Positions 27,131-47,125 of a stretch of 64,000 bases of DNA are shown here, piece by piece. A model generated the notes under the pieces. That model saw nothing but the letters and a program-made list of their open reading frames with translations, was not told where the DNA came from and did no database searches. The position numbers were made by a program, and so were the translations under genes. Numbering within the stretch: the first letter of the stretch is position 1; each line of letters starts with the position of its first letter. The DNA lies in the NCBI GenBank assembly GCA_016934715.1, contig JAFGSI010000064.1, positions 1-64,000 on the forward strand. Reading direction: 5' to 3'. Source of the DNA: Anaerolineales bacterium. Its GTDB lineage: Bacteria; Chloroflexota; Anaerolineae; Anaerolineales; Villigracilaceae.

Positions 27131-27575
27131 CGGCGAAGTGCGCCTGGAGTTCTTCCAGCGCAGCCCGCGCCCGCGCCCGCACGGCGGGATCCAGGTCGAG
27201 ACGGGCGAACTCATCCTCGTCGAGCACGGTCTGGGTTCCATCAGGGGCGACCCACAGATCAAGGGCCAAGTCGACATACGAGAGCAGGTCATCCCCTTCC
27301 CAGACTGCCGGTCGGGCGACATTGCAGTACCAGCCCTTGAGGCGGTCATCGTCGCGATCGTGGATGGCGAAGATGTTGTACCAGCGATCGGTATAATACT
27401 CTTCCACAAAACGGTCGCCTTGTTTGAGCAGGATTCCCATGAAGGCGATATCAGGGCGATTGAAGTGTGCCTGCAGCCGTACCCAGGTCGGACCGCGTTC
27501 CAGCACATGTCCCTGGTAACGCCAGGCCTCTTGCCCCTGCACATTAAGTTTGAGGACGGTGATCGGAGCGTTCAT
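27108..27575 (-). CDS. DUF402 family protein
   Basis: This 155-residue cytoplasmic protein has the FomD/DUF402 barrel core: EEYYTDRWYNIFAIHDRDDDRLKGWYCNVARPA and VDLALDLWV, then DEDEFARLDLDP. Acidic residues at D-x-D and D-L-x-L-D positions match the metal site of family nucleotide or phosphate hydrolases. ATG 27575 overlaps the ThiQ stop in an ATGA, so it is translationally coupled to the thiamine ABC operon. An ATG at 27584 is also in frame. Its presence there suggests, but does not prove, a role with thiamine phosphates or nucleotides. Confidence 0.75.
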   Translation of the reverse strand: MNAPITVLKLNVQGQEAWRYQGHVLERGPTWVRLQAHFNRPDIAFMGILLKQGDRFVEEYYTDRWYNIFAIHDRDDDRLKGWYCNVARPAVWEGDDLLSYVDLALDLWVAPDGTQTVLDEDEFARLDLDPAVRARARAALEELQAHFAEKGTPGG

Positions 27576-28582: not shown

Positions 28583-28615
28583 GCTGCTCCCTAGAAAGGC
28601 AAAGAAACAAAAGGG

Positions 28616-31377: not shown

Positions 31378-31400
31378 AGGAGCCTCCAGTGGTTTGCAGT

Positions 31401-32051
31401 TTAAGACATCCTGCGGTGGATGACGAGCAGCAGGCCGGAGCGGATCTCGACCGTGGCCGTCCCACCGAGCAGTTCGTTGCTGAGACCGCGCGTCCGGTAC
31501 GCCAAGAGGATCTCATCCTGCAGGGGCCAGCGCAACCCCACAGTGCGGACACCGGCGGCGGGTCCGCCCCAGGGCAGCAGCGAGACCAGGTCTCCGGCCG
31601 CGCCCCGGACCTCGCGCCGCCCCCCGGCCTCGATGAAAAAGGCCTGCTCGACCCCATCGTCCAGGCGAACGTCCAGCCCGGCCAGGGCGGGGTCGTTCAA
31701 CAGGGCCAGGTTGGCCAGGGTCTGGTCGAGGCGTCCGCCCAGGGCGGCAACGACAATGATCTCCTCAGGGCCCTGTTCGAGGGCAGCCCGGAAGGCCAGT
31801 TCGAGATCGGACTCGTTCTTGTCCTCCGGATGGACCTGCAGGTGGATGCCGTTCGCCTCGGCCCAGCGCCGCTGGCCGGGCGTCAGCGAGTCCAGGTCCC
31901 CAATGATCGCTTGCGGGACGAGGCCCAGCGCCTGGGCATGGCCCATTCCGCCGTCAGCGGCGAGCAGAAGATCGCCAGTGCGCAGCAGGCGGCGGACAGG
32001 CGCGGGGTCCGAGAGTGTGCCGTTGGCAAAGATGAGGATGCGGGTGGGCAT
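31401..32051 (-). CDS. thiN: Thiamine pyrophosphokinase
   Basis: This 216-residue enzyme makes TPP from thiamine and ATP. Conserved features are LLLAADGG, IGDLDSLTPGQ, HPEDKNESDLELAF (the Mg/ATP and thiamine-binding acidic cluster), VVAALGGRLDQTLANLALL and a C-terminal beta-barrel with LRWPL...GLSNEL. ATG 32051 follows GGAGGGAAC, so the upstream in-frame ATG at 32111, inside the riboswitch/terminator, is rejected. It is the first gene of the operon, so salvaged thiamine is imported and pyrophosphorylated by one unit. Confidence 0.93.
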   Translation of the reverse strand: MPTRILIFANGTLSDPAPVRRLLRTGDLLLAADGGMGHAQALGLVPQAIIGDLDSLTPGQRRWAEANGIHLQVHPEDKNESDLELAFRAALEQGPEEIIVVAALGGRLDQTLANLALLNDPALAGLDVRLDDGVEQAFFIEAGGRREVRGAAGDLVSLLPWGGPAAGVRTVGLRWPLQDEILLAYRTRGLSNELLGGTATVEIRSGLLLVIHRRMS

Positions 32052-32069
32052 GTTCCCTCCATAAAGAAC

Positions 32070-32096
32070 GAAAAACCATCCTGTGGGGAGGATGGT
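32070..32096 (-). terminator. Intrinsic terminator of the TPP riboswitch expression platform
   Basis: Reading the minus strand, ACCATCCT pairs perfectly with AGGATGGT around CCCCAC, followed by TTTTCGTTCTTT. It lies between the aptamer and the thiN ribosome site, so TPP binding probably promotes termination. Confidence 0.88.
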
Positions 32097-32108
32097 CGAT
32101 GAGCTGGG

Positions 32109-32196
32109 CAACGTCCCTCCGCCGGCATGATCCGGATCAGGTTCAGCGGGTCGGAGGCTGGCGGCCTCCCTCTCAGCCCGGTATACGGGCTCCCCG
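32109..32196 (-). promoter_or_regulatory. TPP riboswitch aptamer (THI box)
   Basis: The minus strand shows the conserved order GGGGAGCC, CTGAGAGG, ACCCGCTGAACCTGATCCGG and TGCCGGCGGAGGGA. This includes the CUGAGA pyrimidine-sensor loop and the GCCGGCGGAGGGA pyrophosphate-sensor arm. It sits between a sigma70 promoter and a terminator ahead of thiN, and should shut the thiN-B-P-Q-DUF402 operon when TPP is abundant. Confidence 0.95.
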
Positions 32197-32244: not shown

Positions 32245-32276
32245 AAAAAAGACAGAAAAGCTGGAGCAGCTCTTTT
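32245..32276 (-). terminator. Terminator at the end of the large signalling cluster
   Basis: On the minus strand AAGAGCTG pairs with CAGCTTTT around CTC, with one G-U pair, followed by CTGTCTTTTTT. It is 10 bases after the alpha/beta hydrolase stop and just before the thiamine promoter, so it separates the two minus-strand units. Confidence 0.7.
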
Positions 32277-32286
32277 CAAGCCCCGA

Positions 32287-33081
32287 TCAGCGCACGCGAC
32301 GCTTCCACTCTTCCTTCAACTGTAATTCGCGCGGGCTCTCACCGGAGACCAGGGCCAGGAAGTCGGTCATCAGGCGATTAAATTGGGGGCTATCCTCAAG
32401 CATTGGGAAATGTCCCAATCCTTCGAGCACGAACTGATGGACTTGCTGGGACATGGTCATGACTCGCTCGTAACTGGGCGTTTCGATAGCCGGGTCGTTC
32501 TCGCCCTGGACGATCAGGCAGGGGGTGGTCAGGCTGTCCATGATCGGCATCAGGCTGGCCCCGTCCAGGTTATCAAAGGATGTGGTGATCGCCAGCGGAT
32601 CGACCTTGGGAGCGTCGGTGCGCGCCGGTTCGGTGACCGCGTCCCTGTTGGGTAGCAACCATTCAACCAGGTCTGCGGGAGAGGACGGAGACCGCAGGCG
32701 GCTGTTGACCGCCCCGATCTCGAACGGCATGCTGACGACCATCAGGCGGTCGACTACCTCGGGGAAGCGGCGGGCAAACAAGACCGAGGTCAGGGCCCCC
32801 AATCCATGGCCAATCAGGGCCACCTTGGCGATCCCGAGTTCCTGCAGGAAGTGGCCGAGCAGTTCGGTCTGCTTTTGAAGCGGGTAGCAGGCCTGGTCAT
32901 GACTGGTATCGCCGAATCCCCACAGATCAAGGGCATACGCGCGAAACGACATCGAGGCGCTCTGCATGGCGGGGATCCAGTATCGCCAGGAGCCGATCCA
33001 GCCGTGCAGGAAGATGACCGGACGCCCGCGCCCGAGCACCTCGTAATGCACAATCTTGTCGTCAATCAGTACCGCGCTCAT
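32287..33081 (-). CDS. Alpha/beta-hydrolase-fold protein lacking the nucleophile
   Basis: This 264-residue protein is a clear paralogue of the one at 44847-45644: the two align from residue 10 (IVHYEV.GRGRPVI.LHGW.GSW) without gaps to residue 95. The oxyanion HGW is kept, and Asp (GENDPA) and His (GLGHFPM) are present. The nucleophile elbow, however, reads GHGLG, with Gly93 where the paralogue has Ser93 (GHSMG). The codon is GGA, two changes from any AGC/TCA serine codon, so a single read error is unlikely. It is probably non-catalytic (binding or signalling) and is the last gene of the signalling cluster. Confidence 0.82.
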   Translation of the reverse strand: MSAVLIDDKIVHYEVLGRGRPVIFLHGWIGSWRYWIPAMQSASMSFRAYALDLWGFGDTSHDQACYPLQKQTELLGHFLQELGIAKVALIGHGLGALTSVLFARRFPEVVDRLMVVSMPFEIGAVNSRLRSPSSPADLVEWLLPNRDAVTEPARTDAPKVDPLAITTSFDNLDGASLMPIMDSLTTPCLIVQGENDPAIETPSYERVMTMSQQVHQFVLEGLGHFPMLEDSPQFNRLMTDFLALVSGESPRELQLKEEWKRRVR

Positions 33082-33099
33082 TCTTGGAAGACCAGGCCT

Positions 33100-33474
33100 T
33101 TACTTTCCGTATTTCGCCAAGATGGTCTGGATGCGCGTCGTCAGCTGGTCAGGCGCAAAGGGTTTCAGCAGATACTCGGTGGCGCCGGCCGACAGCCCGG
33201 CCTGGATCTCGGATTCCTGTCCCTTGGCAGAGAGGAACATCACAGGCGTATCCTGCAGGGCCGGATCGGCCTTGATCTCGGCGCAGGCTTCATAACCGGT
33301 CATACGCGGCATGCGCACATCCATCAGGATCAGATCCGGGTTCTCCTGCTTGGCCAGGGTGACCGCATCCTCGCCGTTGCTGGCTGCGACCACTTCATAG
33401 CCCGCGAAACGCAGCGTAAAAGTGATCAGGTCACGGATATCGCGTTCATCTTCGGCAATCAAGATCTTTGTCAT
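33100..33474 (-). CDS. Single-domain response regulator (CheY-like receiver)
   Basis: This 124-residue receiver has the acidic pair (AEDE), phosphoacceptor Asp52 in ILMDVRMP, the Ser/Thr switch FLSAKG and Lys in LLKPFAP. It has no output domain, so it acts through protein contacts. It lies five bases after the giant histidine kinase stop and is surely co-expressed with it. Confidence 0.92.
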   Translation of the reverse strand: MTKILIAEDERDIRDLITFTLRFAGYEVVAASNGEDAVTLAKQENPDLILMDVRMPRMTGYEACAEIKADPALQDTPVMFLSAKGQESEIQAGLSAGATEYLLKPFAPDQLTTRIQTILAKYGK

Positions 33475-33479
33475 GGACG

Positions 33480-36400
33480 TTACTCCTCAGCCTGATATAC
33501 AGGTAAAGTGAAAGAGAAAGTGCTCCCTTCACCAGGAATGCCGTTACTGGTCATCCAGATGCGCCCCTTGTGCGCCTCGACCAGTTGCTTGACAATGGAC
33601 AAACCCAGGCCCGTTCCAGGGGTTGCCAGAACAAGCGGGTGTTCGCCGCGAAAGAAGCGGTCGAAAATGCGTTCCTGGTCGACCAGGTCGATGCCCACAC
33701 CGCTGTCTTTCACATCCACCTGGACTTCATCCCCTTCACGGTGTATGTGGATCGTGATCTGACCATTCTCCGGGGTATAGTGATAGGCATTGTCAACCAG
33801 GTTGTCGATGATCTGGCGAACCCGTTCCGGGTCGCCGGTGACCTGCGGCAATTCGGGAGCTGCGTCGACGGTCAGGGCCATCGGCCGGTTTTCCTCCTGC
33901 GAACGCCGCAGGAGATCAGCGATGCTCTCCTCGGCGACCCCTCTCAGTTCAATCCCCTGGAAGTTGAAAGCCACCCGACCGGCCTCGATGCGCGAGATAT
34001 CGAGCAGGTCGTTGACCAGGATGCTCAAGCGGTCGGTGTTCGAACGCACGATGTCAAGAAAATGGACCTGGTTCTCGTTCAAAGCTCCGGCCGCGCCCAT
34101 CAACAGGATATCAACATAGCCCTTGATGGAGGTCATCGGGGTGCGCAGTTCATGGCTGACGGTGGCGACGAACTCCGACTTGAGCCGGTCGACCTCGACC
34201 TCGTGGGTGATGTCGCGGAAGATGGACACTGTGCCCAGAAACTCGTTGCGCCAGATGACCGGGGCCAGGTGGACCAGCACCACGCGTCCGCTTTCGAGGG
34301 TCAACTGTTCGGCATATGTGTCGCCGGGTTGATAGGTGGACGGATCTTCCGACCAGGCGCGAATGGTTTGCATCCAGGTCTGGGCCGCCTTGCCAAACAG
34401 GCCAACGAAATAATCCAACGGCTTGCCGCGTACCTGCTCGCCCTGCAAGGTCAGGATGCGCTCGATGGAAGAGTTGATGAACGTGATCCGGTCATCCGGG
34501 TCGGTGACCAGGACCCCATCGGCGACGGCCTCAAGAATGGCCTGCTGTCGGCTGGCTTCCACCTGCTGGTTGCGCAACATGCTGCCGAGGCGTTCGGCCT
34601 GATCACGGATCAGTTCGTACAGGTGAGCATTGTTGATCGCCACCGCCACCTGCGAACCGATCGCCTGGACCAGATTCATATGGTCGTGGGTGAAATAATC
34701 AATCTGCCGGTGGAAGACCATGATGGCGCCGATGACTTCCTCGCCGACCATCAGCGGTGCAGAGATCACGCTGCGGTGCTGCGGGGCATTGGCAGGCAAC
34801 TTGACCCAGCGCTTGTCCTTCAAGACATCATCGAGCAGGACGCTTTGACGGTTCTTGATCACCCAGCCAGCCAGGCCTTCGCCAACCTTGAGCGTGGTGG
34901 GACGGGCGCCCTCGGTCATCACCGGGGTGACGTAGCCATACCCGGCTCGATACTGGATCGTATTGTCCTCCGGGTTGACCATCAGGATGCTGCCCTGTTC
35001 GGCGCCGATGGCATCGTTGAGCAGTGCCAGGGTCCGGTTGAGAGCCCGGTCGAGATCAAGGCTGGCTGAAACCTCGGTCAGGATGCGTAGCAGGGTTTCG
35101 GTGCTATGCTGCTCACGGGCCAGCTCGGCAGTACGCTCGACGACGCGCTGTTCGAGTTCGTCGGCCAACCGGCGGGTCTCGGCGAACAGGCGCCCGTTCT
35201 GGATGGCGACGGCCGCCTGGTTGGCCAGTGTGCCCAGGATTGGCAGGTCGTCCTGGACGTAGACGTTGGGCTGGTAGCTCTGGGCAGAGAGCATACCGAT
35301 GACCTTGCCACCCAGGGTGATCGGAACGGCGATGATCGAGCGCGGCTGGCCCTGACCATAGGTGCGGCCATCGAATTCCTCCTGGGCGGCCACATCTGCA
35401 ATCAACAGCGGCTCTCCCTGGGCGATGACGCGTCCGCTCAGGCCCTCCCCGAGCGGTAAACGGATGTTGGGGGAGCGCCCGTTGGGGTCCATCAGGTAAA
35501 CCCCCTCGATCTCGCCGCGTTCTTCGTCCAGCAGGGCGATGACGAACGACTCTGCGACCATCAGCCCGGAGGCGGCCCGGTGGATGGCCATATAGATCTC
35601 CTCCGGGTCAAGGCTGAGGGCGATCTCGTAAGAGGCCCGGTTGATGGTCGTCAGCTGTTCGGCCCGGGATACCGTATCCTGATACAAACGGGCGCTCTCC
35701 AGGGCGATCGCCGCCTGGTTGCTGATCGTGCGGGCCAGTTCGATCTCGGTCGATGTGAAGCGATAGGCTTCTGTCATGTGGACGAACTGCAAGGCCCTCA
35801 GGTTGGTGCCGCTGGCCAGCGGCAGGATCAGCAACGTATGCGTATCATTCAAGATTGCTTCCAAAGGTGCCAGGTCCGGTTCGTTGGCCACGTCAGTCGT
35901 GGTGAAGACGCCCAGCGATTCGCGCAAGCGCTCGAAGATGGGCGCATCCGGCAGGACCTGGACCTGATGCTTCTTCTTCTGGGGCACAACCACAGTCAGC
36001 ACCGGGATCCCCTGTCGGTCAAACGTAACCGCCGAAACGCGCCGGGCCGAGAGTGCCTTGTGCAATTCCTCGGCCGTCAGCAACAAAATTTGTTCTTCGC
36101 TCAATGACCCGCTCAGTTCGGTCGACAGCCGGTTGAGCAGGGCCAAGCGCTGTGAACGTTCGTCGAGTTCAGTGGCCCGGCGCAGGCTCTCTTCGAATAA
36201 ACGAGCATTCTCGATCGCCACTGCCGCCTGGCTGGCGAAAGTGGTCACCAGCTGGGTGTACTCGACCGTGTAGAAATGCGCCTCGGTCTTCTCGAGCGCC
36301 AGAACGCCTACGACTTCACCCTTCGAGACCAGCGGAATACCCATCCAGGAGAGGCGTTCGGCAGCCGTGAGCGCCGGGAAACGCGGATCCCCGCGCACAT

Positions 36401-39400
36401 CGCCGACAACGAGACCCTGCATGGTAGTGATCATCTCGTTCAGCAGGGCCGAGTCTTCGATGGCCACTGAGAGACCGATGCGTTCCTCGTTGTCAGGGAA
36501 ACCCCGCGCCGCAGCAACATTCATGGCATTGCCCTGACGCAGCCAGAGGATGGCAGTGTCGTAATCCAACACGGTGTGCAGCTGATCAAGCAGGCCGGCC
36601 ACCAGTTCATCGGACTGCAGGCTGGAGGCCATGTCGGTTGAAACGTCGGTCAGGGCCTGCAGCTGGGTGGCGCGCTCCTGGGAAGCATCTACCAGGCGAA
36701 CATTTTCGATCGACAGGGCGACTTGCTGGGTCAGCGATAGCAGCAGGGCCTCGTCATCAGCCGAGAAAGCGCCGCTGGTATTGAAGTTGTCCAGGACCAG
36801 CAAACCCAGGATCCGTTCCCCGGTCTGGATTGGGACCAGCAAACTGGATACCGGCAGCCGTCCACCCGTGGCTTCACGGTAGAGCAGCAGGTTTTCAGCG
36901 GCCAGGTTGTAATCACGGGCAAAGTTGACGTCATCCACGCGGCGCGATTTCCGCTCGCTGAAAACCTGACCGGGCAGGGCTTCACCAGCCCGGTAGGCGA
37001 TCTGCATCAGCCGCTCGTTGTTGGCATAGTTCGCCGCGGCCCTGGGGATCAAGGTCTCCTCCTGCTCGTTCCAGACCAGGACCGCGCCGGCATGTGCCAC
37101 CGCGACCACCCGCAGGGCGCTGTCGAGCAGAGCCTGGACGATCCTTTCGGGATCGAGTCCGCTCAATTGGCGGCTAAAGTCAAGCAGCAGGTTGACCTCG
37201 CGCAGGCGCCGGCGAGTTTCAGTCAGCAGGCTGATGTTTTGCAGGATGATCGAGACCTGGCGTGAGATTTGCACGTAGACCTGGCGGTCCTCGTCGGTCA
37301 GGGGCGGCATTGGCTCCCGGCTGATCGCCAGGATGCCCGCCACTGGCTTCTCCTCGATCAGGATCGGCAGGCAGATGAAACCCTTGGCATGCAGGCTGGT
37401 CAGCAGCGGGGCATCGCGCCAGGTGTCATCTTCCTCCAGGTTCATCACCAGGAGCATCTCGCCATTCTGCAGGCTGTAGCGCAGAGGGTTGCGCTGGCCG
37501 AAGAGAGCTTCCGGGCTGGTGCCGCGCGGGACGTTCCCCAAGACGTGCAGCATGCGCGGGCCTTCCGTGGTGTTCTCAGCCACGATCGAGACACTCATCT
37601 CCAGGCGGGTCAGGATCTCGCGCCCCAGGGCCTGAAGAGCCGAGGGACGGTCCACTTGGCGGTTGATCGTCTCGGTAATCTCCAACCCGGCCCGGATGCG
37701 GCGGGCCCGCCGCTCCAGGTTGCGGATGGCGATCATCTGCTCGAGGTCCTTGTGCAGCAGGATGGGCAGGTGCGTCTGGCCGATCGATAACAACTGCTGC
37801 TGCCGGTCGACGCTGACGGAAAGTGTATCGACCTGGTATTTGTACGAAGACAGCCGGTTGCCACTGCGGATCATCAGGGCAGCCTGGGCAGCAAAAATCT
37901 CGATGGTTTCCAGGGTGGTGCGGTCGGGGCGCAACCCATCGCGAGGCGAATCCAGGCTGATCAACCCCACCGGGACGCCCTCCCCATCCTTGAGCGTGAA
38001 GAAGAGCATATCCTCCGGGTGCCAGGCATTCGGCGTCTCGGTCGTCTGGGAGGACATCACGGTAACGACCTGGACATCCCCAGACAGCACCGGGCGCTGG
38101 TCATGGGGAATGAAATAGCCATTCCCGATCTTGAACTCGTCCCGCAACAGCTGTTCCACACTGGCATAGGGTTGGGAGGTCGCCTTAAGCATGCTCAGTG
38201 TCTCGAGGGGCATACCCACACCGGCGACCCGGCGCTGGAGGCCGGTCTCCCGATCAATGATGCTGAACAAAACCACCTGGAAAGGTGTTGCTTCTTGGAT
38301 CCCGTAAGCCAGCGCCTCAAGGGAATTCTCCAGCGGCTGGTCCAGTTCGAGAGCTCGGGTGGTTTCAAACAGCTTGCTGAGGGTCTCGGCACGACGATTA
38401 AGCTGTTCGTTGCGCTGGACTTGTTCCTGATAACGCTGGGCATTGCCCAAGGCGATGGCTGCCTGGACGGCCAGCGTGGTGATGATGTCTACGGCAGCCT
38501 CGTCAAACTGGGCCGCCTCGGAAGAATGAAGGTGAATGAGCCCGATGGTTTGTTCCTGGTATGCGATTGGGGCCACGATCGCCGACTGCACCTGCGCATG
38601 GGGCGGTTGATAATCCCCCTGGCTGAAATCGGCCACCACGATCGGCGCACTGTTGGTGAGCACTTCCCGCTCGATGGGAAGCAATCCCTCCGGCCCGGGA
38701 GCATCCCCAATGTGGAAAACCACCTGAGGTTCCGTCTCTGCCGTGGCCATGGCCTCGAACAGGAGAATGGTGCCGCAATCAGCACGCGTGGTGCGCAGGC
38801 TTTCATCGTAAACAACCTGCAGGAGGTACTTCCATTCCAAGGTGGTGTTCAATTCGCGTCCGATGCGGATCATGGCCGTCAAGTGGTCAACCTGGCGGCG
38901 CAAGCTCTCATCGGTCATCTCGGTCAGTGAGGCACTCTCGACCGCCGCAGCCAGTTGGCCGGCGGCCGTCGAGACGACCTGCAGGTCATAGTTATTGAAA
39001 GCTTCCACCTTATGGCTGGCGAGGATCAACTCGCCCAGACTGCGCTCGCGCACGACCAGCGGTACGATCAGTACCGACTGCATGTTCAACTCGTCCGCCA
39101 GCGGGCGATAGACTGTCAACAAACGCTGGTCATTCGACAGGTGCCCGGCGAGGAAAGACCGCTGACTGCCTGTAACCGTGAAATGGTATTGAGGGTCATT
39201 CTCGTAGATGTGGGTGAAGAGTTCAGTGGCCGCTGCATCCATGCCGAAAAGCGATTCGGTATGCAGGCGCAGCAGTCCCTGGGCTTCATTCAGAAGCATG
39301 ACCGAGGCAACATCGGCCTGCAGCAGGCGGGCCAGTTCCTGGACGGTGTAACGCAGCATCTCGTCTGCTGTGGCAGACGATCCAGTCAGGCTGGCGATCC

Positions 39401-40922
39401 GGCGCAGGGCCTCGGAACGCTGGGCCCGCTGGCGGGCCTGCAGTACCAGGGTGACATTGTCGATGATCGGGGCGGCCTGGTTGGCGACGATATTGAGCAG
39501 GCGTAATTCATCCGCCGTAAAGACCGCCTCCGGTCGCTGGTGGTTGGCAACCTGCAGGTAACCGAGCGAGCGGCCGGCAGACACCAGCGGTACCAGAACG
39601 GCATCCCGCCAGGAAGCCGCCCGGGCAAAATCCTGGAAGCCCATTTCATGCCAGGCTTCGTCATCCTGAGCATTCTGGGTCACCAGCATCTCGTGGCGCA
39701 ACAGGCAATCTTCCACCACACTCCCGGACGGAACGGGCACGTGGTAGAGTTCGACGAACTGGGATGGCATGCCGGTGAAGGGCACCTGGGCCTCCAATTC
39801 GCGGCGGTTCTCGTTGTAGACCAGGAAACCAAGAATGGAGACATCGAACAGGGGAGCAATGCTCTCGACCAGACGAGCGAACAGGTCACGTGGGTCACGT
39901 GCCGAGCCGAGTGCCTGGGCCAGATTGGCCAGCCCGCTCAATTCGGCCGAGCGTTGCTGCTCCTGTTCGAGCAGGATGGCATTGCGAATGGCTACCGCCG
40001 CCTGGCCGACAACCAGTCCCAGGATATCGGCATCCTCCTGTGAAAATGCATCCGCGCTGGTCAGGCCGACTTCCAGCGCGCCGATAAAGTCCTTACCAAC
40101 GATAAAGGGCAGGCCAATGTAGGATCGGAGCAGGGCATGTTCTCCCCCCTCTTCATAAGGAATGTCTGTGTAGACCTGTGTATCAGGAATGAAGAGGACC
40201 GCGCGCTTGTCGACCAGATAAGCGCTGTAACTTCTGGCGGGACGGGCGCTCCCCTGTTGGAGCCTGCGCTCGGACCCTGATCCGGCGGCGAAGCGGTAGG
40301 GAGTTAATTTTTGTTCCTCGGCATCCCACAGAAAAACCTGCAAGAGGTCGGCCGGGATCAGGCGTTCGACGTTCTCCAGAACCGCCTGGATTGTATCGGT
40401 TAGTCCAAGGTTGATCGCCACACCTTGGTTGAATTCGGTCAGAATCCGGACGACTGAACCAGAGGTCTCCCGGGTATCGCCGATCACGCTCATGGCGATT
40501 TCGGGCCGGCGCAGGGAGACCATCAATGCGGGGGGCGAACCGGGAATTCGATAGGAAACACCCTCCATCGGGCGTCCATTCACAGAAAAGCGAGCCTGTC
40601 CTTCAGTGTTGCATAATTTCAGGAATTCTTCACTCGGGCGGATACGCCGGGCAAGCAGTTCCAAGTTGGGGAATTCGCCTTCGCGCAGGCTGAAATACTG
40701 TTTGGCGGTTTCATTCGTGAAGACCACCCGGCCTCCGCTCTGGACGACCAGTGCAGCGTAATCATGTCCGCTGCCGTCGGCCCCCAAGATACCAGAGGCG
40801 GCGGTGCTCTGGGCAGGGCGCAATCGGGGAAGAAAGCGCAATGCCGCCCAGACCAGGAGGAGAAACACCAACCCGGTCACGAGCAGGCCGATCGCCATCT
40901 GAACCGACTGCCCTGCGAGCAT
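33480..40922 (-). CDS. Giant membrane-anchored histidine kinase with 11 GAF domains
   Basis: This is a 2480-residue sensor kinase. It has one N-terminal membrane segment (about 9-31) and a PAS-like domain (52-140). Eleven GAF domains follow at about 175-318, 340-490, 518-662, 695-830, 862-1020, 1092-1230, 1257-1410, 1436-1575, 1606-1746, 1771-1912 and 1955-2102, nearly all closing with a Q(A/V)A(V/I)AI.N-type helix. Then come a PAS domain (2126-2240), HisKA with His2257 (SHELRTP) and HATPase with Asn2378 (IDNLVDNAY), DSGVGI and GTGLGLSI. All catalytic boxes are intact. GAF domains usually bind small ligands or form dimer rods; ligands are unknown here. It lies between two receiver genes. Confidence 0.93.
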   Translation of the reverse strand: MLAGQSVQMAIGLLVTGLVFLLLVWAALRFLPRLRPAQSTAASGILGADGSGHDYAALVVQSGGRVVFTNETAKQYFSLREGEFPNLELLARRIRPSEEFLKLCNTEGQARFSVNGRPMEGVSYRIPGSPPALMVSLRRPEIAMSVIGDTRETSGSVVRILTEFNQGVAINLGLTDTIQAVLENVERLIPADLLQVFLWDAEEQKLTPYRFAAGSGSERRLQQGSARPARSYSAYLVDKRAVLFIPDTQVYTDIPYEEGGEHALLRSYIGLPFIVGKDFIGALEVGLTSADAFSQEDADILGLVVGQAAVAIRNAILLEQEQQRSAELSGLANLAQALGSARDPRDLFARLVESIAPLFDVSILGFLVYNENRRELEAQVPFTGMPSQFVELYHVPVPSGSVVEDCLLRHEMLVTQNAQDDEAWHEMGFQDFARAASWRDAVLVPLVSAGRSLGYLQVANHQRPEAVFTADELRLLNIVANQAAPIIDNVTLVLQARQRAQRSEALRRIASLTGSSATADEMLRYTVQELARLLQADVASVMLLNEAQGLLRLHTESLFGMDAAATELFTHIYENDPQYHFTVTGSQRSFLAGHLSNDQRLLTVYRPLADELNMQSVLIVPLVVRERSLGELILASHKVEAFNNYDLQVVSTAAGQLAAAVESASLTEMTDESLRRQVDHLTAMIRIGRELNTTLEWKYLLQVVYDESLRTTRADCGTILLFEAMATAETEPQVVFHIGDAPGPEGLLPIEREVLTNSAPIVVADFSQGDYQPPHAQVQSAIVAPIAYQEQTIGLIHLHSSEAAQFDEAAVDIITTLAVQAAIALGNAQRYQEQVQRNEQLNRRAETLSKLFETTRALELDQPLENSLEALAYGIQEATPFQVVLFSIIDRETGLQRRVAGVGMPLETLSMLKATSQPYASVEQLLRDEFKIGNGYFIPHDQRPVLSGDVQVVTVMSSQTTETPNAWHPEDMLFFTLKDGEGVPVGLISLDSPRDGLRPDRTTLETIEIFAAQAALMIRSGNRLSSYKYQVDTLSVSVDRQQQLLSIGQTHLPILLHKDLEQMIAIRNLERRARRIRAGLEITETINRQVDRPSALQALGREILTRLEMSVSIVAENTTEGPRMLHVLGNVPRGTSPEALFGQRNPLRYSLQNGEMLLVMNLEEDDTWRDAPLLTSLHAKGFICLPILIEEKPVAGILAISREPMPPLTDEDRQVYVQISRQVSIILQNISLLTETRRRLREVNLLLDFSRQLSGLDPERIVQALLDSALRVVAVAHAGAVLVWNEQEETLIPRAAANYANNERLMQIAYRAGEALPGQVFSERKSRRVDDVNFARDYNLAAENLLLYREATGGRLPVSSLLVPIQTGERILGLLVLDNFNTSGAFSADDEALLLSLTQQVALSIENVRLVDASQERATQLQALTDVSTDMASSLQSDELVAGLLDQLHTVLDYDTAILWLRQGNAMNVAAARGFPDNEERIGLSVAIEDSALLNEMITTMQGLVVGDVRGDPRFPALTAAERLSWMGIPLVSKGEVVGVLALEKTEAHFYTVEYTQLVTTFASQAAVAIENARLFEESLRRATELDERSQRLALLNRLSTELSGSLSEEQILLLTAEELHKALSARRVSAVTFDRQGIPVLTVVVPQKKKHQVQVLPDAPIFERLRESLGVFTTTDVANEPDLAPLEAILNDTHTLLILPLASGTNLRALQFVHMTEAYRFTSTEIELARTISNQAAIALESARLYQDTVSRAEQLTTINRASYEIALSLDPEEIYMAIHRAASGLMVAESFVIALLDEERGEIEGVYLMDPNGRSPNIRLPLGEGLSGRVIAQGEPLLIADVAAQEEFDGRTYGQGQPRSIIAVPITLGGKVIGMLSAQSYQPNVYVQDDLPILGTLANQAAVAIQNGRLFAETRRLADELEQRVVERTAELAREQHSTETLLRILTEVSASLDLDRALNRTLALLNDAIGAEQGSILMVNPEDNTIQYRAGYGYVTPVMTEGARPTTLKVGEGLAGWVIKNRQSVLLDDVLKDKRWVKLPANAPQHRSVISAPLMVGEEVIGAIMVFHRQIDYFTHDHMNLVQAIGSQVAVAINNAHLYELIRDQAERLGSMLRNQQVEASRQQAILEAVADGVLVTDPDDRITFINSSIERILTLQGEQVRGKPLDYFVGLFGKAAQTWMQTIRAWSEDPSTYQPGDTYAEQLTLESGRVVLVHLAPVIWRNEFLGTVSIFRDITHEVEVDRLKSEFVATVSHELRTPMTSIKGYVDILLMGAAGALNENQVHFLDIVRSNTDRLSILVNDLLDISRIEAGRVAFNFQGIELRGVAEESIADLLRRSQEENRPMALTVDAAPELPQVTGDPERVRQIIDNLVDNAYHYTPENGQITIHIHREGDEVQVDVKDSGVGIDLVDQERIFDRFFRGEHPLVLATPGTGLGLSIVKQLVEAHKGRIWMTSNGIPGEGSTFSFTLPVYQAEE

Positions 40923-40930
40923 AGGCTAGA

Positions 40931-41833
40931 TCATCCTTTGGTCGGAGACGTGGGTGCGTCCTGTCTGCGAACCTCAGCCGCCAACTCGGTAATCTCGCGG
41001 ATGTCGGCAAATGTCTGCTGTTTGGGCATGACAATGCCGATCGAGAGGGTCATGAGTGGCGTTTGTTCCGCCTCAGCGCCGGCCGTCGTGATATACCCCT
41101 GCTGACGGTCCATGAAGTTATAGTGTGTCTGCACCTCTTCGGCAAAGCGCGTCTTGAGGCGCTGGCTGATATTGGCTGCCGCATCCTCGGTAGTAATGAT
41201 AATGAGGTTGTCACCGCCAGCATGGCCGATGAAGTCGTTGGGCGTCCCGAATTCATCCACAATTTCCCCGAGCAACATGGCCGTGAACCGCAGCACATCA
41301 TCACCAGCCACGAACCCATAGACATCGTTGAACTGGGTGAAGTAATTGACCCGGATGTCCATGTAGGCCCAACCCGACTGGCGGATCGTCTGGCGCAACT
41401 GCTCCTCGATCAACCGTCCCGCGGGGAGGCCAGAACGCGGGTCGGTCAGCGCTTCTCGTTCGGAGCGGCGAATGGCACCCTGGACCCGCAGCTTCAATTC
41501 CTCGATGTCGAACGGTTTGGTGATGTAGTCATCGGCGCCCAGTTCGAGACCTTGCAGTTTATCGCTGCGCTCATCCTTCTGGGTAAGGAAAATAACCGGA
41601 ATGTGGCTGGTGCGTGTATTGGTCCGCAGGGTGCGACAAACCTCGTACCCGTCGATATCGGGCAACATGATGTCCAGAACGATCAGGTGAGGAAGCACCT
41701 GACGCGTCTTGTCCAGCGCATCCGAACCACGCGGGGCCACATCGACGTCGTAGCCCAGGCCACTGAAGTAGATCTTCAACATGTTGGAAATATCATGATC
41801 ATCTTCGACAACCAAAAGGCGAGATTTTCCCAT
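40931..41833 (-). CDS. Receiver domain fused to a degenerate GGDEF domain
   Basis: This 300-residue protein has an N-terminal receiver (acidic pair EDD, phosphoacceptor Asp54 in IVLDIMLP, Lys in ITKPFD) and a C-terminal GGDEF-like domain. The latter keeps the fold markers (RSGLPAGRLIEEQL, FNDVYGFVAGDDVLRF, TLSIGI), but the active-site motif is AGGDN (205-209) instead of (A/S)GGDEF, and the metal-binding DxD is DIR. Diguanylate cyclase activity is therefore unlikely; it may bind GTP or c-di-GMP or act as a scaffold. It is eight bases upstream of the giant kinase. Confidence 0.85.
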   Translation of the reverse strand: MGKSRLLVVEDDHDISNMLKIYFSGLGYDVDVAPRGSDALDKTRQVLPHLIVLDIMLPDIDGYEVCRTLRTNTRTSHIPVIFLTQKDERSDKLQGLELGADDYITKPFDIEELKLRVQGAIRRSEREALTDPRSGLPAGRLIEEQLRQTIRQSGWAYMDIRVNYFTQFNDVYGFVAGDDVLRFTAMLLGEIVDEFGTPNDFIGHAGGDNLIIITTEDAAANISQRLKTRFAEEVQTHYNFMDRQQGYITTAGAEAEQTPLMTLSIGIVMPKQQTFADIREITELAAEVRRQDAPTSPTKG

Positions 41834-41845
41834 AGTGCCTCCCGT

Positions 41846-42934
41846 TCAAATGCGCCGCCGCGCTTGGCGCGCGAACCGGCGTACAGCTTCGATCTTCTCT
41901 GCGGTCACCTCGCGCTCGAACGAACGGAAGCCGCTCAACCGGAAGCCATGCTTCACAGCCAGCCTGGTGATCTCCTCCACGCGTTCACGCGAGATGTCTT
42001 TGCCCAAAGTATAGTCCTCGAACCGGCCTTCCAGGGCCAGCGTGATGGTCTCTGCCATGCAGGCATACGCCTTGCCGGGCGGGAAACCAAAGTTAAAGTG
42101 GAAATCAACGGGGCCCGGCACATCGACCATGCCACCGTCTATGACTAATATATCATTTCTTGCCGCCGCGACCATTACAGAAACGTCGCGAGGCCTGGCT
42201 ACGTCACAGACCACACTCCCGGGCTGGAGGTGTTCGGGACAAATGACTTCATGGACTGCGCTGGTCACTGTCAGGATCAACTGCGCTCCAGCAATGTCAT
42301 TGACACGCGTACTGGTGCGCAGCTTCGCCCTTCCAGGGCCCTGGAGCCGGTCGCGCAATTCCTCCAGCGCCTGTTCCCGGCGGCCGATCAGGATCACCTC
42401 AGCCACGTCATCCGCCAGCAGGTCTGCACACACCCGGCCGATCGCCCCGGTAGCTCCGACCACTGCGGCAGTCGCCTTTGACAGCGGGATCTCCATCACC
42501 CGCGCCGACTCGCGCACTGCTTCGACAGCAATGGCGACCGTATAGGCGTCGCCGGTGGTGACCGGGATCTCCAGCGCTTCGGCGATCGTAACGCCCGCAT
42601 CACCGACCACCGACGTGTAGGCGCCCAGGCCCAGGATTCCTGCGCCGAGTCTCTCAGCAAAATGGCCTGTCTGAATAATCTTACGATAAACAGTCCATTC
42701 GCGCAACTGCAGCATGCGTCGCGGCGTATACGGACAGGCGATGAACCAGCCCTTGATTTCCTTGCCCGTCGCCTGCGAGGTGATGCCTTCAATCTCAGAT
42801 ATATAGACGGGGGGGAAAAAAGTGGAAAAGAAGTCTATCTGCCGCTCGGTCAGTACGCGACCTAGCAGCGGGAACTTGCGACTGACGTCCCGCTTGGGAT
42901 CAATCGGGTGAATGATGAAAGCGAAAGTGTCCAC
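41846..42934 (-). CDS. Acyl-ACP reductase (AAR)-like, fatty-aldehyde-forming oxidoreductase
   Basis: This 362-residue protein resembles cyanobacterial long-chain acyl-ACP reductase. It has an N-terminal RDVSRKFPLLGR and SEIEGITSQATGKEIKGWFI, LGLGAYTSVVGDAG, EIPVTTGDAYTVAIAVEA and Rossmann VVGATGAIGRVCADLL. The active-site region GKAYACMAETITLALEG has Cys292, close to the catalytic Cys of the cyanobacterial enzyme (about 294). AAR reduces fatty acyl-ACP with NADPH to aldehyde. GTG 42934 is used because upstream codons overlap the preceding gene and lack homology. No aldehyde-deformylating oxygenase is nearby. Quinate/shikimate- or glutamyl-tRNA-reductase-like folds are alternatives but fit less well. 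Confidence 0.75.
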   Translation of the reverse strand: MDTFAFIIHPIDPKRDVSRKFPLLGRVLTERQIDFFSTFFPPVYISEIEGITSQATGKEIKGWFIACPYTPRRMLQLREWTVYRKIIQTGHFAERLGAGILGLGAYTSVVGDAGVTIAEALEIPVTTGDAYTVAIAVEAVRESARVMEIPLSKATAAVVGATGAIGRVCADLLADDVAEVILIGRREQALEELRDRLQGPGRAKLRTSTRVNDIAGAQLILTVTSAVHEVICPEHLQPGSVVCDVARPRDVSVMVAAARNDILVIDGGMVDVPGPVDFHFNFGFPPGKAYACMAETITLALEGRFEDYTLGKDISRERVEEITRLAVKHGFRLSGFRSFEREVTAEKIEAVRRFARQARRRI

Positions 42935-42938
42935 ACGG

Positions 42939-44216
42939 TTACCATGATGTCTGGTCCGATTCGCCACGGCGGGGGTACAGGCGCGGATGCTTGCTGGCAT
43001 CCTTGAGTTGATGGTGGTCGCTGTCCTCATACTTGACGTCGCGGTCGATGATGCGCCGCTGGGGCGTGGCAAACAGGACGACATCCGATTCGATCGTCCG
43101 GGCCGGGAAGATGATCAACCCCGTCCCGATGCGGCAGTTGTGCCCGACACAGCCGCCCAGCACCGGACGGTTGGCAATTGCCAGTTGATCATTTCCATCC
43201 AGTGCCCGGATGGGGGCGGGAATCAAATTATAATCCGTAAATGTATTGCCGGCGCCGATAAAGGTATTGCGCCCGATGACGCACATCTGCAGGCAGGTGT
43301 TCTGGGCGACCATGCTGTTCTCCATAACAGTGGTCATGAAGAGTGCAGCCCGGAACGGCAAGAAGGTCCCATCACCGATTACCGAAAGCATCAACTGGCA
43401 ATCCTGCGAGATGTTGACATTGCTGCCGATGGTACAGTTTTCGATCACTGCCCCGGCGTTGATTGTGACGTTGTCACCGATGGTGGTAGGGCCATGAATG
43501 ACCGCCGTGGGATCGATGACGCAATTCTTGCCGATCTTGACCAGTGCCGAACACTCGAGTAACTGTCGACCCTCATAGACTGCCTTGGACAACAATCCCA
43601 GTTTGAAGCCCAAATCTTTGTTCAACTGATTCTCGAAGCGCGCCCCGCGGGCGAAAAGGCCGAAGACACTGTCGGCGACGAAGACATGGGTCCAGCAGTC
43701 GATGGCGATCATGGCGCGCAGTGGAACCTGGTATACGAGATCGCCACTCTCCGTTGCCATATACGTCGGTACGTGGTAATAGCCGATCTCGCGCGCCTGC
43801 ATATCGATGACCAATGGTTCCACGTCGGCCACCGGGCCTGCCGGGTAGTACCACAGGTCAGCGTAATACAAGTTCCCCGCCGGAGTATACGAGACCGAAA
43901 GCGGCAGGGCATGTTCGCGGAAGGCAGGATCATCCAGGGAAAAGGCTGCCCGCAGGGCCCGGTTGCGCTTTTTGGCCTTTTGCATGAACTCGGTAATGTA
44001 AAACTCGTCGAAATACAGGTTGTCGCGATAGACGAGCATCGGCTCGCGTGAGACAGGCAGTCGCGCCCCACGCGGGAGTTCCAGTTCGCGGGTCACATAG
44101 CGGGCAAGCAGGTCACGCTGGTTCAACCAGAGCGGCTTGTTCTGAATGCGTAGATCGCGCGCTGGCTCATTGAATGGAGAGATGAGACGGGTGGCCTGAA
44201 GGATGACTTTCAGCAT
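42939..44216 (-). CDS. Left-handed beta-helix (hexapeptide-repeat) transferase-like protein
   Basis: This 425-residue protein has no recognised N-terminal half (about 1-215). A hexapeptide-repeat region follows from about 225 to 390 (IGKNCVIDPTAVIHG, IGDNVTINAGAVIENCTIGSNVNIS, IGRNTFIGAGNTF, VGHNCRIGTGLIIF). Such folds usually carry acyl- or nucleotidyl-transfer activity and form trimers. It has neither a GlmU-type nucleotidyltransferase motif nor a signal peptide. It ends five bases before the AAR-like gene, so a joint role in acyl-chain metabolism is plausible but inferred. Confidence 0.7.
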   Translation of the reverse strand: MLKVILQATRLISPFNEPARDLRIQNKPLWLNQRDLLARYVTRELELPRGARLPVSREPMLVYRDNLYFDEFYITEFMQKAKKRNRALRAAFSLDDPAFREHALPLSVSYTPAGNLYYADLWYYPAGPVADVEPLVIDMQAREIGYYHVPTYMATESGDLVYQVPLRAMIAIDCWTHVFVADSVFGLFARGARFENQLNKDLGFKLGLLSKAVYEGRQLLECSALVKIGKNCVIDPTAVIHGPTTIGDNVTINAGAVIENCTIGSNVNISQDCQLMLSVIGDGTFLPFRAALFMTTVMENSMVAQNTCLQMCVIGRNTFIGAGNTFTDYNLIPAPIRALDGNDQLAIANRPVLGGCVGHNCRIGTGLIIFPARTIESDVVLFATPQRRIIDRDVKYEDSDHHQLKDASKHPRLYPRRGESDQTSW

Positions 44217-44220
44217 GGCA

Positions 44221-44850
44221 TTATCCCATCGGGGTCGTTTCTACTACAATTGTACACGCACTGTCGCCTGATGCAACACAACTGGACTCCTCTACCATGA
44301 AATTTCTCCCCCCCGACAACCAGTAGAGCGCCTCCTGGATCAGACCTACGGCCAGGTGGCAGCAGGGGCCATCGGTCTGGCGCCCCCAACACAAAGGGCA
44401 ACGCTCGATGTGCCACAGGAGTTGCTTCTCGCTCCATTCCAGACGCACCTGCTGGTCGGTGAACTGGTTGAACAGGGCCGCGAATGCCTCGCCCCCGGCT
44501 TTCAACTTGGCTGACAGGGGCAGCAGTCGGAACGCCAGATCGGTCAACCCGAGTTCGGGCCCGAACTCGCGCAGGCCATATTTAAGACAGGCCCTCCCGG
44601 TGCGCAGTGCCAGGCCACGACCACCGCGCGGGCCGTAAGCCTTTTCCAGGCCGACCTGCAGGCTGCTGATGTGTTCGAAAGGGATCTTCAAATCTGGATT
44701 GTGAGCAGGATAATTCCCAATATACCCGCCCAAGGCAGTCAGATTAAGAACCGCATTCACCCCATTGCGGCCGATGACCTCTTCCATCGCCAGCAGGATG
44801 ATCCGCCCCATGCGATTTGGATAGAAGTACCTTCCAGCAGACGTTTTCAT
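44221..44850 (-). CDS. V4R (4-vinyl reductase-like) small-molecule-binding protein
   Basis: This 209-residue soluble protein ends with the V4R hallmark: CPLCWGRQTDGPCC, a helix, then VEESSCVASGDSACTIVVE (E-x-x-C-x-A-x-G-D-x-x-C). V4R domains bind hydrophobic or metal-containing ligands and occur in BchJ and in sensor proteins. There is no catalytic prediction. It shares an ATGA overlap with the upstream alpha/beta hydrolase gene and ends four bases before the hexapeptide-repeat gene. A related Cys-rich tail occurs in the broken gene at 1308-2689. Confidence 0.75.
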   Translation of the reverse strand: MKTSAGRYFYPNRMGRIILLAMEEVIGRNGVNAVLNLTALGGYIGNYPAHNPDLKIPFEHISSLQVGLEKAYGPRGGRGLALRTGRACLKYGLREFGPELGLTDLAFRLLPLSAKLKAGGEAFAALFNQFTDQQVRLEWSEKQLLWHIERCPLCWGRQTDGPCCHLAVGLIQEALYWLSGGRNFMVEESSCVASGDSACTIVVETTPMG

Positions 44851-45644
44851 CCGCCCGGATTCTCTTCGTCCAGGAAATCTTTGAGCCGCTGTGCAAAAGG
44901 TTCCGGGTCATCCAGCATGATGAAATGGCCCGCTTTGGGATAACGCTCGATGCGGGCGTGCGGAACGCCTTCCAAGAGCGGCTGCCACTGCATCGGGTGA
45001 ACGATGATATCCTTGTCGCCGAACATACCCATCACCGGGATCTGGAGTTGGTCCAGCATCGGGCGCAGATCAGTGCGGCGCAGGGAGGCAATGCTGAGCA
45101 GGAACGACTCGAGCGTGGTTCGCGACAGGTCCTTGTCCATCATGTCGGAGAAACGCGCATCCTTACAGATGAGCGGCGCGGCGAGCCGCATGCTCAAACG
45201 AAAGCCCCACATCATATTGAACAACAGCCCTGCAATCAGCCGCCGCCCGGCCATCTTCAACGCCCAGGCCAGTGAAGATCCAACGATCGGCGAACCGACG
45301 ACCACCACCTTGCTAACCCTTTGCGGGTACTGGATGGCCACCGACAGGCTGACGGTCCCCCCCATACTGTGACCTACCAGCGGGGCCCGGGTGATGCCGA
45401 GGCGGTCCATGAATTGATCTACCAGCCTGACGAAGTCCTGGACGGCATATGTTTCTCGCTTCTTGCCGGACTCGCCAAACCCCCAGAAATCAAGTGCATA
45501 GGTACGGTAATAGCGACCCAGATAGGCCATGGTTTCCTGCCACAACCCCCAGGAACCCAACCACCCATGAAGCAGAATGACCGGGCGGCCACGCCCGTAT
45601 ACTTCGTAATGAACAATGCCCTGATCGGTGGTAATTGATGACAC
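44847..45644 (-). CDS. Alpha/beta hydrolase with intact triad
   Basis: This 265-residue protein shows HGWLGSW for the oxyanion hole, the nucleophile elbow GHSMGG with Ser93, Asp in FGDKDIIV and His in KAGHFIM. This is the pattern of esterases, epoxide hydrolases and C-C hydrolases. It is a paralogue of the nucleophile-less protein at 32287-33081. The 3' end overlaps the V4R gene by four bases (ATGA). The substrate is unknown; an acyl ester is a reasonable guess given the AAR-like gene. Confidence 0.85.
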   Translation of the reverse strand: MSSITTDQGIVHYEVYGRGRPVILLHGWLGSWGLWQETMAYLGRYYRTYALDFWGFGESGKKRETYAVQDFVRLVDQFMDRLGITRAPLVGHSMGGTVSLSVAIQYPQRVSKVVVVGSPIVGSSLAWALKMAGRRLIAGLLFNMMWGFRLSMRLAAPLICKDARFSDMMDKDLSRTTLESFLLSIASLRRTDLRPMLDQLQIPVMGMFGDKDIIVHPMQWQPLLEGVPHARIERYPKAGHFIMLDDPEPFAQRLKDFLDEENPGG

Positions 45645-45668
45645 GGTGGTTACAACAAAATGGAGAGA

Positions 45669-46211
45669 TTATTTCTCTCCACTCTCCATTTCAGCCAGGA
45701 TGCTGTACAACAATTCAAGCAGGATCGTTTTGACCGAATCACGATCCATGGCGACACAGGAAAGGAATTTGACCTTTGGATCAAGGCGCAGGGCGTGGCG
45801 CATGTCCTCGAGCTCCCAGGCGTCATTCATGTCCTGTTTGTTGGCTGCCACCACATAGGGTGTCGGTGCGTAAGCACGGAAAGTCTCGAGGATGGAGCGT
45901 GCTTCGCGAAAGGTCTCCGGACGCGTGCTGTCGACAAGGACAATGAACCCCAGCATCCCTTCCGACAGAATCTCCCACATGAAATCAAAACGCTTCTGCC
46001 CAGGAGTACCGAAGAGATACAACACCAGGTCTTCGTCCACCGTGATGCGGCCAAAGTCCATCGCGACGGTGGTTGCCTCTTTGACAGTCTTCTCGGCCTT
46101 GGTCGAGATCTTGCGTTCTGTCGAGACCACGTCAATTTCGCTGACCGACTTGATGAACTCTGTCTTGCCAGCGCTGAAGGGACCAGTGACAACCATTTTG
46201 ACCGTTTGCAT
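45669..46211 (-). CDS. MglA/CvnD-like small GTPase
   Basis: This 180-residue single-domain GTPase has P-loop GPFSAGKTEF, G3 LFGTPGQKRF, G4 NKQD and G5-like SCVA. TTVAMDFGRI in the switch I region is typical of the prokaryotic Arf-like/CvnD branch. These proteins work as switches in polarity and in Streptomyces conservons, usually with roadblock partners, which are absent here. ATG 46211 is preceded by GAGGA. The PATAN protein encoded just upstream is a likely partner. Confidence 0.85.
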   Translation of the reverse strand: MQTVKMVVTGPFSAGKTEFIKSVSEIDVVSTERKISTKAEKTVKEATTVAMDFGRITVDEDLVLYLFGTPGQKRFDFMWEILSEGMLGFIVLVDSTRPETFREARSILETFRAYAPTPYVVAANKQDMNDAWELEDMRHALRLDPKVKFLSCVAMDRDSVKTILLELLYSILAEMESGEK

Positions 46212-46232
46212 GCTCGCTATCCTCAAGAAAAG

Positions 46233-47048
46233 TTATAGAGAACGAATTCTGGTAATCAGGCGGTTGACCAACGTCTTTTGTTCTTCCTTGTCTTCCGTTG
46301 GGAAGACCCGCACCGGTTGCGGGATGGGAACCCCCTCCGGACGACAAATCTCCACCAGGCCTGCCTGCAGCAGTCCGTAAACGATCCGCCGGATTTCAAG
46401 ATCGTTCATCTTCGCCGCATTGCCGATCTGGCGGATGGTGTTCTTGGGGTTGATATATGAAACGACACGCCACTCTTCAACGTTCAGATTGACGTTGCGC
46501 ATATTGGCGTCCGGGCGGGCGGTGAATTTCAAGGCCATGTCCAGGCTCGGAATTTCGTCCTGGAGTTGCTCCCACTCGCGCAACTGGCGCGAACCTTCGA
46601 TGATCAGGTTTTCAAGGTCCAGGCGAACGTTGATGCGATCGTCGGGCGGCAGCTGGTCATTGTCAAAGCGGAAGAAGCCTTCTACCCAGGTAAACAAGCG
46701 GTGGATCACGTCGGTGGAATATTGCTGCAGATTCGCCAGGATGTCATCCTGGGAGACATAGCCGGCATTGATCAGCAGCAATCCGAGTTCTTTGTCCGAG
46801 ACTGAATTGCCGCGCTGCTGGATGGCCTTGTACTGCCCGGCAGACAGCTTGTTGGCCTTGAATAGAATATGGGCCAGGCTGGTGTCCTCGCGGCCGATCT
46901 GGGCAAAGGCCAGCTTGCCTTCGCGGAAAAACGCTTGAGCCGTCTCGTTGGGGCCTTCGACGACCAGGGTGCCCGTCTTGCGAGCCAGGTTGATGAGATT
47001 CAGAAGTTGCGTTATTGTGAAATCGCGCAGGTTGCCGCGCAGTGCCAT
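46233..47048 (-). CDS. DUF4388/PATAN domain protein
   Basis: This 271-residue protein opens with the PATAN core: LRGNLRDFTITQLLNLINLARKTGTLVVEG, then AFFREGKLAFAQIG. A helical segment (SAGQYKAIQQRG) and a second module with FTWVEGFFRFDNDQLPPDDR follow, as in Chloroflexota and Deltaproteobacteria DUF4388 proteins. A winged-helix-like tail (NTIRQIGNAAKMNDLEIRRI) ends it. PATAN proteins modulate response regulators and GTPase pathways. It is the first gene of the large cluster and lies next to the small GTPase. Confidence 0.82.
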   Translation of the reverse strand: MALRGNLRDFTITQLLNLINLARKTGTLVVEGPNETAQAFFREGKLAFAQIGREDTSLAHILFKANKLSAGQYKAIQQRGNSVSDKELGLLLINAGYVSQDDILANLQQYSTDVIHRLFTWVEGFFRFDNDQLPPDDRINVRLDLENLIIEGSRQLREWEQLQDEIPSLDMALKFTARPDANMRNVNLNVEEWRVVSYINPKNTIRQIGNAAKMNDLEIRRIVYGLLQAGLVEICRPEGVPIPQPVRVFPTEDKEEQKTLVNRLITRIRSL

Positions 47049-47096: not shown

Positions 47097-47125
47097 ATTA
47101 TACTTGTAAGGATGCCAAGCGTCAA
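47097..47125 (-). promoter_or_regulatory. Sigma70 promoter of the signalling/lipid cluster
   Basis: On the minus strand TTGACG (47125-47120), 17 bases, then TATAAT (47102-47097). Predicted start near 47090, 40 bases before the DUF4388 ATG. No other comparable promoter was found before 32.3 kb, so it may drive all ten genes. Confidence 0.75.

Follow-up and report, generated by a model that had tools for sequence, protein, structure and literature searches.

Ten minus-strand genes (g1 to g10, running from position 47048 down to position 32287 of the window, that is, of the whole 64,000-nucleotide stretch of Anaerolineales bacterium DNA that was analysed) look like an undescribed cell-signalling system, and no described system was found to match them. 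Their order is maintained over much of a large bacterial group, most of it filamentous. On the basis of sequence comparisons, we consider it probable that they encode a signalling system conserved in Chloroflexota, whose MglA-type GTPase is tied to a giant multi-GAF kinase. The initial annotation of this DNA had proposed a signalling-type unit with an MglA-type GTPase, PATAN and V4R proteins, unmatched by any described system, and this part of its reading is supported.

All ten genes were found at the position and on the strand first assigned to them and their domain content matches that annotation (Pfam and NCBIfam), with Pfam matches to DUF4388/PATAN, small GTPase, V4R, hexapeptide, receiver plus GGDEF, multi-GAF histidine kinase, receiver and two alpha/beta hydrolases. 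Adjacent genes are spaced by 4-24 bp or overlap, g3 and g4 sharing the single ATGA overlap. The start of the g2 GTPase was corrected to an ATG at 46211 and that of the g6 reductase to a GTG at 42934, 4 bp past the LbH stop. The cluster, its candidate signals and a paralogous module elsewhere in the same genome are composed as follows:

46233-47048, minus strand: g1, PATAN (DUF4388) protein, 271 aa (Pfam DUF4388, 95 bits)
45669-46211, minus strand: g2, MglA-type small GTPase, 180 aa (Pfam, motifs)
44847-45644, minus strand: g3, alpha/beta hydrolase whose nucleophile motif (GHSMG) is intact (Pfam, motif alignment)
44221-44850, minus strand: g4, V4R protein, an optional member (Pfam V4R over cut-off, alignment)
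42939-44216, minus strand: g5, LbH/hexapeptide protein whose N-terminal domain is nucleotidyltransferase-like (Pfam, AlphaFold, Foldseek)
41846-42934, minus strand: g6, acyl-ACP-reductase/PigE-N-like reductase, an optional member (NCBIfam, structure-sequence alignment)
40931-41833, minus strand: g7, receiver with a degenerate GGDEF domain (Pfam, motif reading)
33480-40922, minus strand: g8, giant histidine kinase, 2480 aa (Pfam)
33100-33474, minus strand: g9, single-domain receiver (Pfam; conserved in relatives)
32287-33081, minus strand: g10, pseudo alpha/beta hydrolase that has lost the nucleophile Ser (Pfam, alignment)
47097-47125, minus strand: promoter-like site TTGACG-17-TATAAT upstream of g1 (consensus match only)
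32256-32274, minus strand: terminator-like hairpin 3' of g10 (no excess of such sites over chance in the region)
L184, 6361-8251, equal to contig C60 of the same genome, 102360-104250: roadblock-V4R-RR/GGDEF paralogous module

The promoter first proposed is a strong match (11/12), but promoter-like sites barely exceed chance in the region (8 found against 5.5 +/- 2.4 expected); likewise, the hairpin of the proposed terminator exists, but terminator-like sites in the region are at chance (13 against 12.8) and this one looks ordinary. The 3' boundary of the cluster is supported despite the ordinary terminator site, since the next downstream unit is opened by its own TPP riboswitch (32206-32096, minus strand). 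That unit (27572-32111, minus strand) encodes, after the riboswitch, thiamine pyrophosphokinase, a solute-binding protein, a permease and an ATPase, and the first two elements of this riboswitch/thiamine pyrophosphokinase/solute-binding/permease/ATPase series are often downstream of the cluster in relatives; the presence of the riboswitch rules out the thiamine genes as members of the cluster. Upstream of the cluster lies a divergent class I (W/Y) tRNA-synthetase gene.

Scanning GTDB genomes with an LbH alignment retrieved 463 relatives. The best 80 carry the titles Anaerolineae, Anaerolineales or plain Chloroflexi, and the cultured Levilinea, Ornatilinea, Bellilinea and Thermanaerothrix are among them; metagenome assemblies make up most of the relatives. 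The survey covered Chloroflexota, other phyla being covered only through these best 80 matches, and LbH is present in 69 of the 400 sampled Chloroflexota genomes, from 11 families. Eight genomes contain the full ten genes in identical order (20-kb stretches L032, L034-L038, L040 and L041, same family), and the ten genes are also complete in L044, with a smaller kinase. Of the relatives that could be assessed, 58 of 64 keep the PATAN-GTPase-hydrolase trio and 60 of 62 keep RR-kinase-RR, the cluster being co-linear over families f1, f2, f4 and f11, with partial forms in f12, f13, f24, f25, f35, f61 and f64. When relatives were checked for genes scattered singly, as the initial annotation had suggested, the order held and the claim of a unit was not refuted; judged from the gene orders read, co-linearity across many genomes is far above chance. 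We consider extremely improbable the explanation that these are unrelated genes whose adjacency reflects vertical descent within a single clade. One order does supply most of the full clusters, and the thiamine operon, which has a riboswitch of its own, is often found downstream too, which indicates that unrelated genes can stay adjacent; nevertheless, the gene order is kept across families and classes against changing flanks, halves of the cluster survive where others were lost, and a paralogous module of like gene types is present in the same genome.

The variant forms are informative on the composition of the cluster. Loci L042, L043 and L045 contain PATAN, GTPase, hydrolase, LbH and AAR with no kinase alongside, L153-L160 represent a reduced Chloroflexia form (V4R-LbH-RR-kinase-hydrolase, without GTPase), and in genomes G055 and G120 the cluster is split, with the GTPase side on another contig. 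The Chloroflexia-type loci (L153-L169) hold LbH, RR/GGDEF and the giant kinase, and some of them V4R or hydrolase. Of all the genes, LbH alone recurs in every variant read (full, kinase-less, GTPase-less and split), V4R being present in 66/72 loci and missing in 6/72. Chloroflexia retain PATAN and GTPase as a separate pair, with a 64-67% identical GTPase, and, since this pair is not beside LbH and the kinase, the link between GTPase and kinase rests on Anaerolineae synteny. The Chloroflexia pair adjoins a fixed gene set in L172-L174, L177-L181 and L183, composed of an mnmA-like gene and mostly also a 310-aa gene. Two copies of the cluster in opposite orientation (L084 and L085) were observed in Levilinea saccharolytica contig NZ_LGCM01000042.1; their only differences fall within 1.7-4.0 kb of the end of the locus, and the duplication is either real or an assembly artefact.

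The assignment of g2 is based on its motifs, namely GPFSAGKT (G1), GTPGQ (G3) and NKQD (G4), with GTPGQ[KR]RF present in 87/87 relatives; a G3 with Gln and without Asp fits the MglA type, and MglA is among the PDB matches of g2. Group 1 of the Rup family, whose G3 has no Gln and whose neighbours encode OmpA-domain and coiled-coil proteins (PMC4316618), is unlike g2, which has the G3 Gln and lacks those neighbours. PATAN proteins were previously reported to adjoin MglA groups 1 and 5 (PMC4316618). The PATAN protein g1 is conserved in relatives and its residues 174-264 match 7kua (E 0.0013, profile comparison), the C-terminal half resembling a MarR-type winged helix. The adjacent g3 hydrolase has the nucleophile motif GHSMG in 88 relatives and GHSTG in L161. 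Roadblock proteins are the standard partners of MglA; no roadblock (MglB-like) gene is present among the ten genes of the cluster, and two are found elsewhere in the same genome. Roadblock genes do occur beside related loci, namely in L161 (7839-13699), which reads PATAN-GTPase-roadblock-roadblock-V4R-LbH-hydrolase with a third roadblock after the hydrolase, and in the PATAN-GTPase-roadblock triad of L182.

On the kinase side, g8 is composed of one N-terminal hydrophobic (transmembrane-like) helix, PAS, HisKA and HATPase domains and 10 clear GAF domains; residues 827-1129 (~300 residues) leave room for one or two more, so that the 11 GAF domains first counted are plausible. The single-domain receiver g9 is conserved in relatives. 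Both degenerate proteins first described on this side are indeed degenerate, and consistently so: the GG[DE]EF motif of diguanylate cyclases is lost in g7 and in every relative read (GGDNL here, GGDNF or GGDNL in most relatives and unrecognisable in Chloroflexia), and the nucleophile Ser of g10 is replaced in 34/34 sequences read, Chloroflexia included (by Gly here and in most relatives, by Asp in two and by Ala in one).

A third degenerate enzyme relative is the LbH protein itself. An AlphaFold model of g5 built from 60 sequences (pLDDT 82, pTM 0.85; with less certainty for residues 220-310, in the first part of the beta-helix) has ST0452 and GMPPA/GMPPB as best Foldseek matches (E 5e-10 to 5z0a, probability 1.00), and predicts a fold of the bifunctional sugar-1-phosphate nucleotidyl/acetyltransferase type; an earlier model from 15 sequences was poor (pLDDT 57) and was set aside. 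His177 and His359 are invariant in 60/60 sequences, and the G-loop signature GxGTR is missing in the same 60/60. According to the model, g5 is a sugar-nucleotidyltransferase-like protein without the nucleotide-binding G-loop, and its identification as an ordinary GlmU-type enzyme is unsupported for lack of that loop. The conserved degeneracy of g5, g7 and g10 favours sensing or scaffolding over synthesis as the role of these three proteins. It also bears on the quite improbable alternative of an envelope biosynthesis operon, in which LbH would be an active acyl-/acetyltransferase, the hydrolase and the reductase would make a surface lipid or glycan, with the role of the kinase and the GTPase limited to regulating or localising the process. 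The fold of LbH, its two invariant His residues and the catalytic residues kept in the reductase and in one hydrolase are in line with such an operon; the loss of the N-terminal G-loop in all LbH sequences, the catalytically dead appearance of two partner proteins and the absence of any glycosyltransferase, acyl carrier or flippase gene from the cluster argue against it.

The g6 reductase aligns with solved acyl-ACP reductases (6jzq) and with PigE, with the catalytic-Cys region in register, and it has an NAD(P)-binding motif and a catalytic Cys that is kept in 72/72 sequences. It falls under the TIGR04058 cut-off (115.5 against 449.7 bits) and is closer to the N-terminal domain of PigE (211 bits, the cut-off of 850 being set for the whole PigE protein). 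The gene is present in 57/71 loci and absent between LbH and RR in 14/71, three of which are Levilinea copies. Two of the loci counted as holding it (L067 and L068) have fragments of 118 and 52 residues only and one counted as lacking it (L086) has a 28-residue trace, remnants that point to repeated loss; moreover, no AAR match was found in the whole genomes G104 (Bellilinea) and G216, both of which keep LbH and the GTPase side. As clusters persist without AAR, its role as a core gene is ruled out and, in the loci read, the fatty-acid reductase is an accessory lost by some members. The acyl-compound synthesis that the initial annotation had placed at the core is not sustained by this distribution; V4R is also optional, and what remains of the acyl link is a looser co-occurrence of LbH and AAR at the genome level.

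This co-occurrence (an AAR-family protein in 63/69 LbH genomes versus 5/331 others; about p 1e-6 at the family level, from rough family counts) owes part to shared ancestry and, even so, keeps alive a rival model that we judge unlikely, namely a lipid-signal circuit in which the reductase and the hydrolase make an acyl-derived compound that is sensed by V4R and the kinase. Such a circuit would be in agreement with the catalytic Cys and NAD(P) motif of the reductases read, with a g3 hydrolase that appears active from its residues and with a V4R protein of the ligand-binding type. However, the reductase has been lost from clusters that are otherwise intact and, in Chloroflexia, it is unlinked to LbH and in a fused form, behind a 310-aa domain. 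Fused AAR-like reductases of this kind, preceded by a ~310-aa domain, were observed in L046-L053, L055-L057 and L061, that is, in Chloroflexia-type and some other genomes, with one to three copies per genome; their different context and extra N-terminal domain rule them out as an equivalent locus. In L058 (7018-9567), a class III aminotransferase is followed by an AAR-like domain, the reverse of the PigE domain order.

The V4R protein g4 scores 33.4 bits in Pfam against a cut-off of 31 and has five Cys residues that are invariant in 10/10 aligned sequences; comparing its sequence with solved structures gave no useful match. The Bet3 subunit of TRAPP is a V4R homologue (PMC2253512), and PoxR and the Asgard TRAPPC3 (Thor-TRAPPC3) bind Zn through four Cys residues (PMC10933270). 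The paralogous module listed above encodes a roadblock protein, a V4R protein 48% identical to g4 and an RR/GGDEF protein 45% identical to g7, with no adjacent kinase. V4R is located 592-883 bp from a roadblock gene in 9/17 genomes compared, which include all seven same-class genomes that have both genes and, among Chloroflexia, only G309. A tandem V4R pair was also observed in the own genome (C51, 59258-60033), and likewise in G055 and G120. For a V4R-roadblock-GTPase link in bacteria, a partial literature search gave archaeal work and one unrelated paper only.

Returning to the reading that we favour, a conserved signalling system, the fixed gene order joins PATAN and the MglA-type GTPase, through the degenerate LbH protein, to the giant kinase and the two receivers. 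The GAF array of g8 would integrate small-molecule signals and g8 would phosphorylate both g7 and g9, while the degenerate proteins may serve as ligand-binding or scaffold proteins; from its gene neighbourhood, LbH is the candidate hub where the kinase and GTPase outputs meet. V4R, the active hydrolase and, where present, the reductase could adjust the system to a ligand of the lipid or acyl type, and the nucleotide state of the GTPase would set a spatial or surface output, such as polarity, pili, gliding or filament behaviour. This output is a guess from the biology of MglA and PATAN in other bacteria. The cluster holders G110 and G118 are, we presume, Herpetosiphon aurantiacus and Chloroflexus aurantiacus, known gliders. 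Cyanobacterial PATAN proteins bind the pilus motor (PMC9090330). We also envisage, as a very improbable possibility, a bacterial TRAPP-like logic, in which V4R and roadblock proteins would act as lipid-responsive regulators of the MglA-type GTPase, under the giant kinase, and label places on the membrane, for instance septa, pili or the intracellular membrane vesicles seen in Chloroflexales, the function of which is not known (PMC7332563). If the favoured signalling reading is true, one of the larger bacterial phyla possesses an MglA-type switch of its own, conserved over classes that comprise gliding and filamentous bacteria, the motility machinery of which is not known (PMC7332563, PMC13104615).

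Several known systems resemble parts of the cluster. The Myxococcus MglA/MglB polarity system (with RomR and Frz) also combines a kinase system and response regulators with a GTPase that lacks the G3 Asp, and MglA groups 1 and 5 share the PATAN neighbours (PMC4316618); however, the Myxococcus system has no counterpart of LbH, V4R and the reductase, while the Chloroflexota cluster is without MglB (found in L161 and at other places in the genome) and its kinase is a giant GAF protein. In the actinobacterial conservon (CvnA-D, MglA group 2), a histidine kinase and an MglA-type GTPase are likewise encoded together, but the conservon is a set of histidine kinase, roadblock, CvnC and GTPase, whereas the ten genes include no roadblock- or CvnC-type gene, have a kinase with a GAF array and additionally encode LbH, hydrolases, PATAN and receivers. 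As for the individual proteins, g6 shares fold family, catalytic Cys and Rossmann motif, all in register, with the cyanobacterial acyl-ACP reductase (TIGR04058) and the PigE N-terminal domain, but it scores far below the TIGR04058 cut-off and has no aldehyde-using partner gene; g5 shares the whole-chain fold, N-terminal domain plus LbH, with GMPPA/GMPPB and ST0452 (TM about 0.5), but at about 12% identity and with the G-loop signature missing from the 60 sequences. Compared with TRAPP-type complexes, in which V4R-fold and longin/roadblock subunits form a GEF for a Ras-like GTPase, the GTPase here is of the MglA rather than the Rab type, there is no longin pair and no vesicle function, and the association is known here from gene neighbourhood. 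Still, V4R, roadblock and Ras-like GTPase genes adjoin in these genomes as in the Asgard GTPase-roadblock-TRAPPC3 set, the five invariant Cys residues of g4 are candidate ligands for a Zn site like that of PoxR and Thor-TRAPPC3 (PMC10933270), and this neighbourhood bears on whether bacteria already used TRAPP building blocks together with small GTPases.
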